A stretch of DNA of 64,000 nt from Opitutaceae bacterium (GCA_028284235.1 JANQSC010000008.1:1-64000); one strand, 5' to 3'; shown: positions 1 through 4,563, counted from the first letter of the stretch. A program made the numbers and translations. The notes: a model not told the origin generated them from the sequence alone.

Positions 1-927
1 TGGATCCTCCAGGAAGCCTGGCACTCCGAGGTCCTCCAGGGCCGGCCCGAGGCCTCGCACGATCACCGTCTTGGAGGTCCCGCCCAGGACCGTCAGCCCG
101 GGGATCAGGATGTCCCCGCCCGTCCCCACGAAGCCGCGGGTGGACAGGTTGAACAGCTCCGCGCTGGCGGCGTCGTCGATCGTCAGCGTCGCCGCGGCGG
201 ACTCGACCGAGCCGGCCGAGTTGGCCGCCACCACGGAGTAGCTGCCCTCGTCGCCCGGCCCCGCGTCCGTGACAATCAAGGTCGACTCGGTCGCCCCGGG
301 AATGTCCGTTCCGTCCTTCTTCCACTGGATCGAATCGACGCCCTCCGTCGCGTCGAAGAAAAACTGGGCTCGGGCGCCGGTGGCCACCCTTGTCGAAACC
401 GGGTCGCGTGTGATCTCCGGAATGGCGGTGACAACGATGGTGATAGTGGTGGCGGGGATCGTTTGTAACGTCTGGTTTATTCCATTGTATGGCTGGACGG
501 TAATGTCGAAGGTCCCCGCTTCGGTAGGCGTGCCTGAAATTACGACCGGGTCCTCGGTGTTGATATTGTCGCCCACTAAGCCTGCTATCGAGAGCCCGTC
601 GGGGAACGTACCAGTGACCTTCCAAGAGGACTCCGCGGCCGGCGTGTCGATTACTGAAAACACGAGATTAAACGGTTCTCCCACTGTCGCTGGGGCAGGC
701 GAGGCAGGTTCAATGACGTACTCCGTCGCGCCGGAAAGCGAGTGGATCCCGCCGAGCGACGCGGCGGTAACGGTAAACGCTCGGACGATTTTCGCGACCG
801 GGGCGGAGATTGCTTTCTCGAGCTGAATGGCCTGCTTGACAACAGGGGCTCGCTGCAACAGGGCAGCAAGGATGAAGATGCTCACCTGTGCACGGGCGAG
901 CCTCACTTGAATCCACATGAGTTTCAT
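1..927 (-). CDS. Secreted Ig-like domain protein, 3' end beyond the window
   Basis: An open minus-strand frame begins at the ATG at 927 (a second ATG lies at 918) and stays open to the left edge, so only the first 309 codons are present. The N-terminus is signal-peptide-like, followed by a putative Ig-type (cadherin-like) beta domain around residues 70-150. An Ig-like domain follows around residues 160-235, with the conserved Trp (IQWKKDG) and a DEGSYSVVAANSAG strand; the usual disulphide Cys is replaced by Val. The last visible part, beginning FNLSTRGFVGTGGD and continuing through VRGLGPALEDLG, resembles a module common in secreted Opitutales proteins. Function is unknown; a surface or extracellular role is inferred. 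Confidence 0.8.
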   Translation of the reverse strand, partial: MKLMWIQVRLARAQVSIFILAALLQRAPVVKQAIQLEKAISAPVAKIVRAFTVTAASLGGIHSLSGATEYVIEPASPAPATVGEPFNLVFSVIDTPAAESSWKVTGTFPDGLSIAGLVGDNINTEDPVVISGTPTEAGTFDITVQPYNGINQTLQTIPATTITIVVTAIPEITRDPVSTRVATGARAQFFFDATEGVDSIQWKKDGTDIPGATESTLIVTDAGPGDEGSYSVVAANSAGSVESAAATLTIDDAASAELFNLSTRGFVGTGGDILIPGLTVLGGTSKTVIVRGLGPALEDLGVPGFLEDP

Positions 928-973: not shown

Positions 974-1207
974 TTAGTTGCAGCCGCAACCGCCGCCGCC
1001 GACACCTTCTCCGCCCGTGCTCGCTTCGCGCGAGAACTGTATGTGGGAGGTCATTACAGACGCGAGCTCGTCGCGGTCGGAACGCATGGTGTAGTCCGCC
1101 AAGTTGCCTTTCTGGTAGGGCTCGACGGTGGAGCAGGCGGACAGCGCAACGGCGCCCAACGCGGGAGCCAGCCATCGAAATAGTCGTTTTATCAATACGC
1201 GTTTCAT
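974..1207 (-). CDS. DUF4266 small lipoprotein with Gly-Cys tail
   Basis: This 77-residue protein has a basic start, a hydrophobic stretch and a lipobox (LSAC) that places the lipidated Cys at residue 25. Ser at +2 is compatible with outer-membrane sorting if Lol rules apply. The mature part is only about 50 residues and ends in a glycine-rich GGGGCGCN tail with Cys74 and Cys76. It matches the DUF4266 family, which commonly neighbours ApbE, TlpA-like and DUF3570 genes. Its ATG overlaps the stop of the thioredoxin gene by 4 bases (ATGA), so it is translationally coupled as the last gene of the unit. The biochemical role is unknown; the two terminal cysteines could be substrates of the neighbouring thioredoxin or bind a metal, but that is inference. 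Confidence 0.85.
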   Translation of the reverse strand: MKRVLIKRLFRWLAPALGAVALSACSTVEPYQKGNLADYTMRSDRDELASVMTSHIQFSREASTGGEGVGGGGCGCN

Positions 1208-1704
1208 TCCGCAAGTAAGGTTTGAATTTGATCCGTGAGGCTTTCGACGGATTTCTTCCCGTGCCAGCCTTCGTGAGTAAATCGAACGACCCCCGACTGG
1301 TCTACGAGGAAGGAGGACGGCATCACTTGGATCCCAGCTTCCTTAACCAGGCGCTGCCCCGCGTCGTGCGGCGTCGGGAAGGACGGCTTCTGCTTGGCGA
1401 GAAATCGCTCCATCAGGTTGGCCTTCTGATCCACGCTGACGGCGATGATTTGAAATCCCTCGTCGCCAAATTTCTGGTACAATTTTTCCATCTCCGGGAA
1501 CGCCGCTTTGCACGGGGCGCACCAGGAGGCCCAGAAGTCTATCAAAGTGACTTTGCCCTCCAACTCAGGCGCGTCTCCCGCGAGTTCGTATTCCGCCAGG
1601 GACGAAGGCAATTGCGTATCCGTTCCCCACCCTTCCGCGAAGGTTGCAGCGAGGACGCTCCATATCAACCCAATCGCCGCGCTAGTTTTCCACAAGTCTC
1701 TCAT
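1204..1704 (-). CDS. TlpA-type periplasmic thioredoxin
   Basis: The 166-residue product has an N-terminal signal sequence or anchor (about residues 8-23) and one thioredoxin fold of the TlpA/ResA type. The active site WCAPC is at residues 61-65, preceded by the strand VTLIDFWAS. The cis-Pro region is VMPSSF, followed by LVDQSGVVRF. Such proteins reduce or isomerise disulphides, or maintain cysteine ligands, outside the cytoplasmic membrane. It starts 23 bases inside the end of the ApbE gene and shares ATGA with the DUF4266 gene, so the three are one transcription unit. The probable client is the Cys-tailed DUF4266 lipoprotein (inference). Confidence 0.92.
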   Translation of the reverse strand: MRDLWKTSAAIGLIWSVLAATFAEGWGTDTQLPSSLAEYELAGDAPELEGKVTLIDFWASWCAPCKAAFPEMEKLYQKFGDEGFQIIAVSVDQKANLMERFLAKQKPSFPTPHDAGQRLVKEAGIQVMPSSFLVDQSGVVRFTHEGWHGKKSVESLTDQIQTLLAE

Positions 1705-2662
1705 AGAATTTCGATGTTTGTTGTATTCCGGAGTTCATGACGACGCATCCTTCCGCGCCGAAAACCCCTTCCACTAGTTTTAGTCCTTCCTCTTCCCCCA
1801 GCACGCACACTGCCGTCGAAAGCACGCCTGCTTCTAGACAGGAGTTGGCGGCAATGGTGGCAGACAAAATTCCAGTCACGACCGGCCGGCCGGAGCGCGG
1901 ATCGAGAATATGGCCGTACCGCTGTCCCTTGTATTCGAAAAAGCGCCGGTAGTCGCCCGAAGTGGCGATTCCGATATCCACCGCGGCCAGGCTCGACCAA
2001 GCGGCCCCGGGCGTCTCGGGATTTTCCAATCCAATGTGCCAAGCTGGGTTTCCGGGGGGGGCGCCGACAGCGTGGATATCCCGGCCGAAGTCCACCAGGC
2101 AGCTGGGAATTCGGTGACCCACGGCAATGGCGGCTACCTTGTCGACGGCGTACTCTTTTCCGAAACCGCCCAGGTCTAGACTCATCCCTTCTTCGGGAAG
2201 GAAGATCTCGCCAGGCCGCCGCTGGACTTTGCTCCAGCCGACTTTCTGTAGGGCCCGGGCGACGTCTTCGTCCGAGGGGATGGACGTTCGCTTCCGCCGG
2301 TAGTCCCAGAGAGCGATCAAGGGAAGCGTGGTCGGATCGAGCACGCCTTGGGTCATGAAATTCAAATCGTCGCAAATGGCGCAGATCGACTCGACTTCCG
2401 CGTCGATTTCAGTCCACCGGATCCCCGCGTTTCGATTGATTTCGGAAATCAGGCTGTCGTCGCGAAATCGTGAATACTTGGTCTCGAAGCTTGCCACCCA
2501 TTGAACCGCTTCCTTGGCAAACGCAGCGGCGTGATCGTTCGACGTCGCCGCGTACTGGATACGGCAGTCGGTCCCCAAGGCGCGAAAACGCAGGTCGTAG
2601 AGGCTGCGTTTGGAATCGAGCGTCACTCGGGCGTCGATCTGCATGGGTCGTGGCGGGCTCAT
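1682..2662 (-). CDS. apbE: ApbE-family FAD:protein FMN transferase
   Basis: The 326-residue product fits ApbE, the Mg-dependent enzyme that attaches FMN from FAD to Thr/Ser of extracytoplasmic proteins. Recognisable blocks are SLDLGGFGKEYAVDKVA and TSGDYRRFF followed by GHILDPRSGRPV. I chose the ATG at 2662 because it shares one base with the stop of the DUF3570 gene (TAATG); Met7 at 2644 is an alternative. Two oddities are visible. No signal peptide or lipobox precedes the catalytic domain, although the likely target is an exported protein. The usual ADA(L)ST block reads AGVLST, so the Asp expected as a Mg ligand is Gly. A divergent subfamily dedicated to its neighbour is likely. Confidence 0.9.
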   Translation of the reverse strand: MSPPRPMQIDARVTLDSKRSLYDLRFRALGTDCRIQYAATSNDHAAAFAKEAVQWVASFETKYSRFRDDSLISEINRNAGIRWTEIDAEVESICAICDDLNFMTQGVLDPTTLPLIALWDYRRKRTSIPSDEDVARALQKVGWSKVQRRPGEIFLPEEGMSLDLGGFGKEYAVDKVAAIAVGHRIPSCLVDFGRDIHAVGAPPGNPAWHIGLENPETPGAAWSSLAAVDIGIATSGDYRRFFEYKGQRYGHILDPRSGRPVVTGILSATIAANSCLEAGVLSTAVCVLGEEEGLKLVEGVFGAEGCVVMNSGIQQTSKFYERLVEN

Positions 2663-3819
2663 TAAAACCATACGGTGGCTCCCAAGGTTAGCACGTCCGC
2701 GTCCGGGAACGCGGACTGAGGCGTATTGTCTTTGCCCTCCATTTCGTAGCGCTCGAAGGCTGCGTCGATGCCGAAATTTTCGTTGAGCTTGTAGATTACC
2801 TTCAGTCCAAAGGTGTGCGTATCGAATTTCGCGAGACGGTAGTCGGCCGAATAATGGGGGGCGACTCCTTCGATCGAGTCGCGGGGATCGGTCGGCGTGC
2901 CGGAGAGATCCAGAATGTAGAAATTGGCCGCGTCCTGGGAGTAGTAGCGGTATTTGGGTCGAACGATCCAGCGTTCGCCGATTTTCTGGTACCACTCCAA
3001 GTCGAAGGTATTGCTTTCCACTCCCCAAGTATCGTTGAAGTGCCGGTAGTCGAAGTCGAGGCTGCCTCCGATACCGTCGAAGAAACGTTTAAGGTTGAAG
3101 AACCAGATCCTGCGGGTCCGGTCGCTGGGCCGGTTTTCCGAAAACGTGAGCGGAAGCGAAATGCCCGGCAGAATTTCGGTTTCCCTTCGAATGATTTTAT
3201 AAGGGTCGCTGAGATAGCCGCTGTAGTCGCTGTAGGTGAAGTTAAGGGCGACGATGGTATTGGGGTCGACCACCTGGCTGATGCCGACGAAGTAGTCGTA
3301 GCTTTCTTTTTCGCGCTGCTCTTCGAAAAACGCCGGTCGGACGGCGTCGTCGATGAAGGAAATGCCGTAGCTGATCCCGGTGTTGCGCTGGTTGATCTCC
3401 GAGGTCTGGGAAATGGCGTAGCCTCGCGAGAGAAAATCGCTCTCGGAGCTGTAGGAGTACTGAAAGGTGGTGGCGTGGATGCCGTGGGTCCAGTCGAGGT
3501 CGAAAACGCCCGCCTCGCGGACGTCAACCAGACTGGAAAGGGGAACGTTGACGCCGTCGTCGGCCGGCACCCCGGTGGGCGTAGCGCCTGAGATGGCGTC
3601 GTGCACGCCGTGGCCCTTCAGAGTCAATTGGCTGTTGATGGCCTTTTCAAATCCGAGGTAACGGGAGATGACACGTATCCGGTCGTTGTCTTCGGCATAG
3701 TCCTGCCATTTTACGGAGATATGGTCTTCCGCGACCGACAGGCGCAGGCCAAACAGGTACACGTAGCCTGCGACGAGGGCGATTCGCGCAGTTCTGGGCA
3801 AGGAGAAAAATCGGCTCAT
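2662..3819 (-). CDS. DUF3570 outer-membrane beta-barrel with ApbE flavinylation motif
   Basis: The product has 385 residues, an N-terminal signal peptide (to about residue 30, LSVA/ED) and a series of alternating beta strands ending in a terminal aromatic (GATVWF), as in outer-membrane barrels. It matches DUF3570. Residues 74-80 read DAISGAT (bases 3580-3600), a match to the D-x-x-S/T-G-A-T/S consensus on which ApbE places FMN in RnfG and NqrC; Thr80 would be the acceptor. The ApbE gene follows with a one-base overlap. I infer a flavinylated outer-membrane protein. It is the first gene of the four-gene unit. Confidence 0.88.
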   Translation of the reverse strand: MSRFFSLPRTARIALVAGYVYLFGLRLSVAEDHISVKWQDYAEDNDRIRVISRYLGFEKAINSQLTLKGHGVHDAISGATPTGVPADDGVNVPLSSLVDVREAGVFDLDWTHGIHATTFQYSYSSESDFLSRGYAISQTSEINQRNTGISYGISFIDDAVRPAFFEEQREKESYDYFVGISQVVDPNTIVALNFTYSDYSGYLSDPYKIIRRETEILPGISLPLTFSENRPSDRTRRIWFFNLKRFFDGIGGSLDFDYRHFNDTWGVESNTFDLEWYQKIGERWIVRPKYRYYSQDAANFYILDLSGTPTDPRDSIEGVAPHYSADYRLAKFDTHTFGLKVIYKLNENFGIDAAFERYEMEGKDNTPQSAFPDADVLTLGATVWF

Positions 3820-4068: not shown

Positions 4069-4563
4069 ATGCCAACTCAATTTCTTTTCGCCTACGGAAC
4101 GCTTCGAAGCCACGAGCCTGAACAGGCAAGGCACGGTCCTCGGGTATTGTCGCAAATGCCCGGCGCGGTAGCGGGATCGCTTTTTCTCCTCAAGGAGGGC
4201 TATCCGATCATCGTCGTCCCTCGCGAAACGCTCTTGGCTTCGGCGAGCGCGAATTGGGCCACTGACTGGGAACGGGCGAAAACGCGGCTGACCAAACGCA
4301 TTGCAAACGACTCGAACGACGCAATTCCCTACATTCAAGGCGAAGTAATGGAAGTCCCTCTCGAACCTGGGGCGCTCGACGCCGCGGACGCTTGGGAAGG
4401 GTTCTCTATCGGATCCAAGAGCACTTACCAGCGGATCGCGGTACCCGTCACTCGCGATAACGGCTCCGTGGTTGCCGCTTGGCTCTACGGGTGCTTCACC
4501 CCCCCAAATACGGCGATACCGATCGAGGGGAGCCGCTGGGATCGGGGCGAGTCGATTTCTTAA
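4069..4563 (+). CDS. Gamma-glutamylcyclotransferase-like (AIG2 fold) protein
   Basis: The 164-residue product carries the family signature FAYGTLR at residues 7-13, which forms the substrate-binding loop of GGCT/AIG2-like proteins, and an acidic segment DAADAWEGF around residue 105 where the catalytic Glu of the family is expected. Members cyclise gamma-glutamyl amines or peptides to 5-oxoproline, but many AIG2-like proteins have no proven substrate. It is monocistronic on the plus strand, opposite to both neighbours, and converges with the DUF3127 gene 14 bases downstream. The substrate cannot be named from sequence. Confidence 0.85.
   Translation: MPTQFLFAYGTLRSHEPEQARHGPRVLSQMPGAVAGSLFLLKEGYPIIVVPRETLLASASANWATDWERAKTRLTKRIANDSNDAIPYIQGEVMEVPLEPGALDAADAWEGFSIGSKSTYQRIAVPVTRDNGSVVAAWLYGCFTPPNTAIPIEGSRWDRGESIS

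Follow-up and report, generated by a model that had tools for sequence, protein, structure and literature searches.

A probable Verrucomicrobiota variant of the DUF3570/ApbE flavin system with a divergent ApbE that lacks a signal peptide

The system closest to the one treated here is described in the passages on DUF3570 of Meheust et al. 2021 (PMC8238504), according to which DUF3570 is a client of ApbE, and the Chlorobium luteolum (C. luteolum) protein was flavinylated by its cognate ApbE and lost the flavin when both acceptor serines were mutated. The same passages describe clusters in which DUF3570 and ApbE occur with thioredoxin-like and DUF4266 proteins and, in some cases, with DsbD; DUF3570, thioredoxin and DUF4266 were counted at DsbD in 227, 183 and 221 clusters, respectively, 316 clusters had no linked DsbD, and the CXC tail of DUF4266 was named as a possible redox site. 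Beyond that paper, our literature search found no paper naming DUF3570 or DUF4266. In this report, we analyse an operon at positions 974-3819 of a 64,000-nucleotide stretch of DNA from an Opitutaceae bacterium (GCA_028284235.1 JANQSC010000008.1:1-64000; the whole stretch is called the window), and our data suggest that it is probably a Verrucomicrobiota variant of the DUF3570/ApbE/thioredoxin/DUF4266 flavin electron-transfer system, in which ApbE tags its client in the cytoplasm before export.

An initial annotation of this DNA had described a four-gene unit, and the four genes, the DAISGAT motif at residues 74-80 of DUF3570 and a one-base overlap between the first two genes are all exactly as it gave them, according to gene calls and Pfam scores that lie well over the cut-off. 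The count of four fell short, as a fifth gene (927 to 1) lies behind DUF4266. The operon comprises the following features.

2662-3819, minus strand: DUF3570 protein of 385 residues, confidently predicted to be an outer-membrane beta-barrel (PF12094, 213.7 bits; Sec-type signal peptide; C-terminal F)
3580-3600, minus strand: ApbE acceptor heptad DAISGAT, DUF3570 residues 74-80, with flavin mononucleotide (FMN) predicted on Thr80; outer end of strand 3 (65-81)
1682-2662, minus strand: ApbE-family flavin transferase of 326 residues, divergent AG/GKE clade, without signal peptide (PF02424, 238.9 bits)
1826-1831, minus strand: ApbE A278-G279 in place of the canonical A-D (catalytic/metal Asp), from alignments; the G is invariant in the operon-type alignment
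2153-2161, minus strand: ApbE G168-K169-E170 in place of the usual canonical AKG, from alignments
1204-1704, minus strand: TlpA/ResA-like thioredoxin with signal peptide and WCAPCK (Cys62 and Cys65 at 1510-1521); Redoxin, AhpC-TSA and Thioredoxin_8 matches, best 75.9 bits
974-1207, minus strand: DUF4266 lipoprotein of 77 residues with lipobox Cys25 and C-terminal CGCN at 977-988 (PF14086, 74.9 bits)
1-927, minus strand: fifth gene, a recurrent neighbour cut by the contig end, for a putative surface protein with immunoglobulin (Ig) domains (I-set) and a conserved N-terminal module
724-744, minus strand: heptad HSLSGAT, fifth-gene residues 62-68, at the end of the N-terminal module; either a signal-peptidase site or a candidate second acceptor for ApbE

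The genes are tightly packed: the DUF3570 stop and the ApbE ATG have base 2662 in common (TAATG), ApbE and thioredoxin overlap by 23 bases and thioredoxin and DUF4266 by 4, and the fifth gene starts 46 bases behind DUF4266. The order DUF3570-ApbE-thioredoxin-DUF4266 is kept in nearly all homologous loci, across many families. A scan for promoters and terminators gave no signal above chance.

This gene set fits the 2021 description, and the locus is therefore a member of a known system. Like the clusters described in those passages (PMC8238504), it combines, in one cluster, a DUF3570 acceptor carrying [S/T]GA[S/T] with an ApbE, a thioredoxin-like protein and a DUF4266 protein with a C-terminal CXC, and the partners are exported; it differs in having one acceptor site instead of two, an unlinked DsbD, an AG/GKE ApbE without a signal peptide and a fifth, Ig-domain gene. 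Thus, the initial annotation was right in kind when it proposed a flavinylated DUF3570, a client relationship shown for the C. luteolum protein and with its site conserved here, but the supposed new kind of ApbE target had been published in 2021. The passages on these clusters contain no discussion of an AG/GKE ApbE without a signal or of a fifth Ig gene. What looks new here is the compartment and the active site of ApbE and the fifth gene, and not the barrel motif; the predicted place of the acceptor Thr in the barrel and the clustering of conserved residues on its outer side also go further than the 2021 account.

The ApbE of the operon, which the initial annotation recognized while overlooking both its missing signal peptide and its changed active site, has the features that carry this reading. 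Signal peptides were called by hydropathy and inspection, not by SignalP, and on this basis DUF3570, thioredoxin and DUF4266 each have one, whereas their ApbE has neither the signal peptide nor the lipobox of canonical ApbEs; the best 11-residue hydropathy has a median of 2.6-2.7 in thioredoxin and DUF4266, against 0.10 in the window ApbE. Among operon copies, about 20-38 residues separate the start codon from the ApbE domain, and most copies have no hydrophobic segment of that kind; a few copies reach a hydropathy of 1.5-2.05, often within the domain itself. A wrong start within the gene overlap was considered as the cause and rejected, since in some copies the frame has only about four codons upstream of the DUF3570 stop, and unlinked ApbE copies (L111 and L137) are likewise without a signal peptide. 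As in canonical ApbE/Ftp FMN transferases, whose clients are NqrC, RnfG and NosR, the window protein has the ApbE domain, the triad Ser and His (Ser235 and His251, invariant in operon ApbEs) and a heptad client; unlike them, it has Gly in place of Asp and GKE in place of AKG, and it belongs to a separate clade. In ApbEs that have been studied, the lost Asp both belongs to the triad and binds the metal (Vc Asp285, FmnB Asp301; E. coli Asp280 is equated with it from how the ligands given in PMC4767422 are spaced), and in all core operon copies it is replaced by Gly, Gly279 in the window. In the tree, operon-type ApbEs, together with the Vibrio (L075) and L137 proteins, stand apart from 24 canonical ApbEs with support 98/93, and the Verrucomicrobiota operon copies group with 100/99, the Vibrio and L137 rows being long. 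Fifteen of the 16 next-best ApbEs fetched from the phylum keep the canonical KG (14 with Asp, one with Glu), and most of them seem, from the N-terminus, to be membrane-bound or lipidated; the sixteenth (L137, G284:C51:58582-59397) is a divergent GKE/AG protein without a signal peptide and with no known client beside it. The ApbE of a Vibrio system (L075) also has KE, AG and no signal. The genome of the window encodes two more ApbE-like genes (G000:C37, L073, and G000:C80, L074:6252-7373).

Cytosolic ApbEs without a signal peptide are known beside flavocytochromes or fumarate reductases, as in Klebsiella, where the client is a soluble cytoplasmic enzyme (review PMC12052999). A Pantoea plasmid (L152) likewise encodes an ApbE without a signal peptide next to a flavocytochrome with DAITGAT; this copy keeps both AKG and Asp, so location alone does not explain the AG/GKE change, and the idea that AG/GKE marks every cytosolic ApbE was rejected on its account. 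Other DUF3570 clusters, in Hymenobacter (L076) and in three deep-branch loci (L069-L071), resemble the window in having DUF3570, a DUF4266-like lipoprotein, ApbE and, in most, thioredoxin; they differ in that their ApbE looks secreted, with canonical AKG and Asp in L069-L071, and in the acceptor site, which is of the form DYxSSAS (DYVSSAS in the deep-branch loci).

The distribution of the divergent ApbE closely follows that of its presumed client. Among 289 Verrucomicrobiota genomes, DUF3570 was matched in 30 and DUF4266 in 29, and the two sets are identical except for G181, whose sole match is a short and weak one to DUF3570. A profile of operon-type ApbE matched 28 copies at 385-520 bits in 26 of the 289 genomes, the next best match being at 237 bits; these 26 are exactly the DUF3570 genomes minus the three deep-branch ones and G181, and two genomes with two operons each carry two copies. 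Most of these copies were in the search profile and match by construction, but three points are not by construction and remain informative, namely the gap in bit score, the lack of such copies in other genomes and the detection of the G284 copy; the latter scores 502.7 bits, was outside the profile and lies on a different contig from its DUF3570. That DUF3570 retains the acceptor site, so the motif is not kept only beside ApbE, an association whose testing the initial annotation had proposed. In seven operon genomes with a completeness of 95% or more, including one that is a single contig, the operon-type ApbE is the sole ApbE, and if DUF3570 is flavinylated there, it must be by this enzyme. 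Together, a signal-less ApbE type confined, among the 289 genomes, to core-operon ones and alone in seven of them points to flavinylation in the cytoplasm, before export. Sampling covered one phylum and a few plasmids, with other phyla barely represented: no relative turned up when viral contigs were scanned for DUF3570, searches of plasmids found the Vibrio and Hymenobacter systems only, and one scan of genome contigs gave 8 DUF3570 loci, all from Verrucomicrobiota.

The presumed acceptor is conserved in the barrel. A strict D..[ST]GA[ST] motif occurred in 59 of 20,000 shuffles of the window DUF3570 protein, so the heptad is more than chance, and at its column all 35 aligned core homologues have [DN]xx[SATV]G[AS][TS]P, with T or S as the last heptad residue in 35 of 35 and an invariant Pro after it. 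The site is conserved among core DUF3570 proteins, and the description of the motif as perfect holds for the window protein, but not for relatives with SIAGAT, AIVGAT or AISGSS. The second site of published members is absent from the window protein. A long Pro-rich insert follows the acceptor site in L043-L045, L056, L061, L063, L064, L067 and L068, and several proteins with this insert hold a second site, such as KAGATPAP or TAATPAP. In another locus (L058, G121), DUF3570 is broken into three frames, including a TAG stop, with ApbE, thioredoxin and DUF4266 whole, which may reflect decay or a sequencing error.

The outer-membrane location proposed for DUF3570 was borne out, and we are confident from the model that the protein is an outer-membrane barrel. 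It has a signal peptide, a C-terminal aromatic residue and an even-stranded barrel of 18 strands in an AlphaFold2 model (predicted local distance difference test, pLDDT, 90.6), which matches outer-membrane barrels (best VIA Z 22.2, root-mean-square deviation 3.3 over 274 aligned residues) at identities near 10%; sequence comparison with solved structures found no similar one. With both termini taken as periplasmic, as is general for outer-membrane barrels, strand 3 runs outward; on it L65 and L67 point out and K68, H70 and D74 point in, and we infer from this alternation that Thr80 would be on the lumen side, near the outer rim. Of the 60 most conserved residues, 45 lie in the outer half and loops against 13 on the periplasmic side, and the difference in mean conservation between the two sides was equalled by 77 of 20,000 position shuffles. 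In most porins, the outer loops are the most variable part, and the conserved outer half of the modelled barrel therefore suggests a functional site that faces outward.

The thioredoxin is of the TlpA/redoxin type and not PF13899, its ResA-like match being under the cut-off; two core loci (L046 and L067) are without a TlpA-like thioredoxin, and L067 has a Thioredoxin_7 protein directly behind DUF4266. The lipoprotein with a GCGC-type tail noted initially is DUF4266: its lipobox is LSAC25, its C-terminal end reads GGGGCGCN, and the CGC is kept in all aligned DUF4266 sequences. One full-length DsbD is encoded on another contig of the same genome, and DsbD was found in 11 of the 11 operon genomes searched; it adjoins apbE in Vibrio and lies directly behind the Ig gene in the single-contig genome G140.

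One neighbour family recurs in 13 lineage groups, namely Ig-like-domain proteins encoded mostly less than 200 bases behind DUF4266. Their first 70 or so residues form a module of a hydrophobic stretch, LLQR[TAS]P and a second hydrophobic stretch, which in nearly all of them ends with [DNHQ]x[LVTMQ][SAV]GA[TS]. A profile of this module matched 15 genomes, every one with the operon (a 16th match, G137, is noise at 17.9 bits), and within the family of the window the module is present in 11 of 11 operon genomes and in 0 of 14 others (exact p 2.2e-7). Recurrence behind DUF4266 and restriction of the module to operon genomes argue that the Ig protein belongs to the flavin system. Whether its heptad is also an acceptor is more doubtful, and we regard it as somewhat more likely that the heptad ends a long and unusual signal peptide, [SAV]-G-A in front of T fitting signal peptidase I, and that the Ig protein is not flavinylated. 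The small residues at -3 and -1 suit the peptidase, and the heptad comes after two weakly predicted helices and immediately before the folded part, in a model that is itself weak (pLDDT 65.8). Against this, the heptad agrees with the ApbE pattern, with position 1 kept as D/N/H and position 7 as T/S, neither of which a cleavage site would require, and it was found in 0 of 1105 other open reading frames (first 110 residues), the module being confined to operon genomes with its unlinked copies included; such copies occur in five operon genomes, with the heptad retained. Compared with the ApbE pattern, the Ig heptad has H at position 1 in the window copy and often A at position 4, and it overlaps the possible signal-peptidase site. 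Covariation at position 4 between the barrel site and the Ig heptad was considered and not used as evidence, with V-V in two genomes, A-A in several and S-A mismatches in L049, L055 and L060. In G235 (L046:8864-13522), the usual Ig module behind DUF4266 is replaced by a gene for about 1540 residues with a signal peptide, one CxxCH and TIG, cadherin-like and Ig domains, and it is possible, from the CxxCH motif, that heme there takes the place of flavin.

We propose the following mechanism. The dedicated signal-less ApbE would act in the cytoplasm, where flavin adenine dinucleotide (FAD) is at hand, and load FMN onto Thr80 while the DUF3570 precursor is still unfolded; the FMN-bearing precursor would then pass Sec and the beta-barrel assembly machinery (BAM). 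DsbD would hand cytoplasmic electrons to the TlpA-like thioredoxin, which would reduce the DUF4266 lipoprotein at the CGC dithiol of its Gly-rich tail; the CGC tail would give electrons to the barrel FMN, and the FMN would reduce an acceptor outside. The Ig-domain protein would be a surface partner, possibly also flavinylated. For the first step we draw on the data for ApbE, for the chain on gene content together with the published proposal, and for the outside site on the model; the flavinylation of the window DUF3570, its compartment, the path and direction of the electrons and the outside acceptor are all inferred. We put forward only tentatively, as less likely than not, a fuller version in which a dedicated ApbE clade of the cytosol, its active site rebuilt by loss of the Asp and gain of a Glu, tags both the barrel and surface Ig N-termini, and flavin crosses Sec to the cell surface to be fed, cytochrome-free, by DsbD, thioredoxin and the CGC lipoprotein.

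Several points weigh against cytoplasmic flavinylation before export and the chain built on it. Loss of the Asp leaves the activity of the operon ApbE clade unassured, because the ApbEs studied use this residue in the triad and to bind metal, and an ApbE made in the cytosol without an export signal failed to support function in an apbE knock-out (review PMC12052999). DsbD is not adjacent to the operon in the window, and the model places Thr80 by strand parity and presumes both that the window DUF3570 would carry FMN and that an FMN-bearing protein could pass Sec. The missing Asp would suit an arrangement in which a canonical periplasmic lipoprotein ApbE tags DUF3570 and the operon ApbE is inactive or has another role, such as FAD binding or chaperoning; the other clear ApbE of the same genome, on C37, is just such a lipoprotein, and no FMN_bind client protein was found in that genome. 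This arrangement appears improbable given the seven near-complete operon genomes without any other ApbE, the invariant Ser and His and the one-to-one occurrence of the clade with DUF3570. We consider it more improbable still that the operon ApbE, exported in some way that needs no classical signal, acts in the periplasm: all other operon products are exported and the deep-branch and Hymenobacter ApbEs look secreted, but nearly all operon copies have no signal-like N-terminus, nor does the unlinked G284 copy with its own start, and cytosolic ApbEs exist (review PMC12052999).

A different use of the same parts would be the handling of copper or iron, with the CGC tail binding metal and the flavin changing its redox state. 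A heavy-metal P-type ATPase lies directly upstream of DUF3570 in L061 (3275-5503; YHS and HMBD domains) and in its relative L064 (7911-10112), and the published passages count VIT1 in 25 clusters (PMC8238504). The window cluster contains no metal gene, however, and it is Ig proteins and, in some loci, DsbD that recur as neighbours, so that we hold a metal function to be unlikely. Of the disulphide or metal partner that the initial annotation envisaged, the thioredoxin and DUF4266 are indeed partners in the published system, but for a metal partner there is no direct evidence here. Cytoplasmic tagging by the dedicated ApbE remains our preferred reading of the locus.

In the window, a GGACT (gamma-glutamyl cyclotransferase-like) gene lies at 4069-4563 on the plus strand, divergent from the operon. 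An OmpR-type response regulator is encoded behind DUF4266 in L047, L058 and L059, together with a histidine kinase in L047, which suggests regulation of the system.

In exported systems, the known clients of ApbE receive their flavin outside the cytoplasm, and this poses the question of how FAD reaches that side. If our reading is true, with a signal-less ApbE serving an exported client, the protein itself would carry its cofactor out of the cytoplasm, and the operon would provide a cytochrome-free route of electrons to the outside of the outer membrane; likewise, if they are indeed tagged, surface Ig proteins could join the list of flavin carriers.

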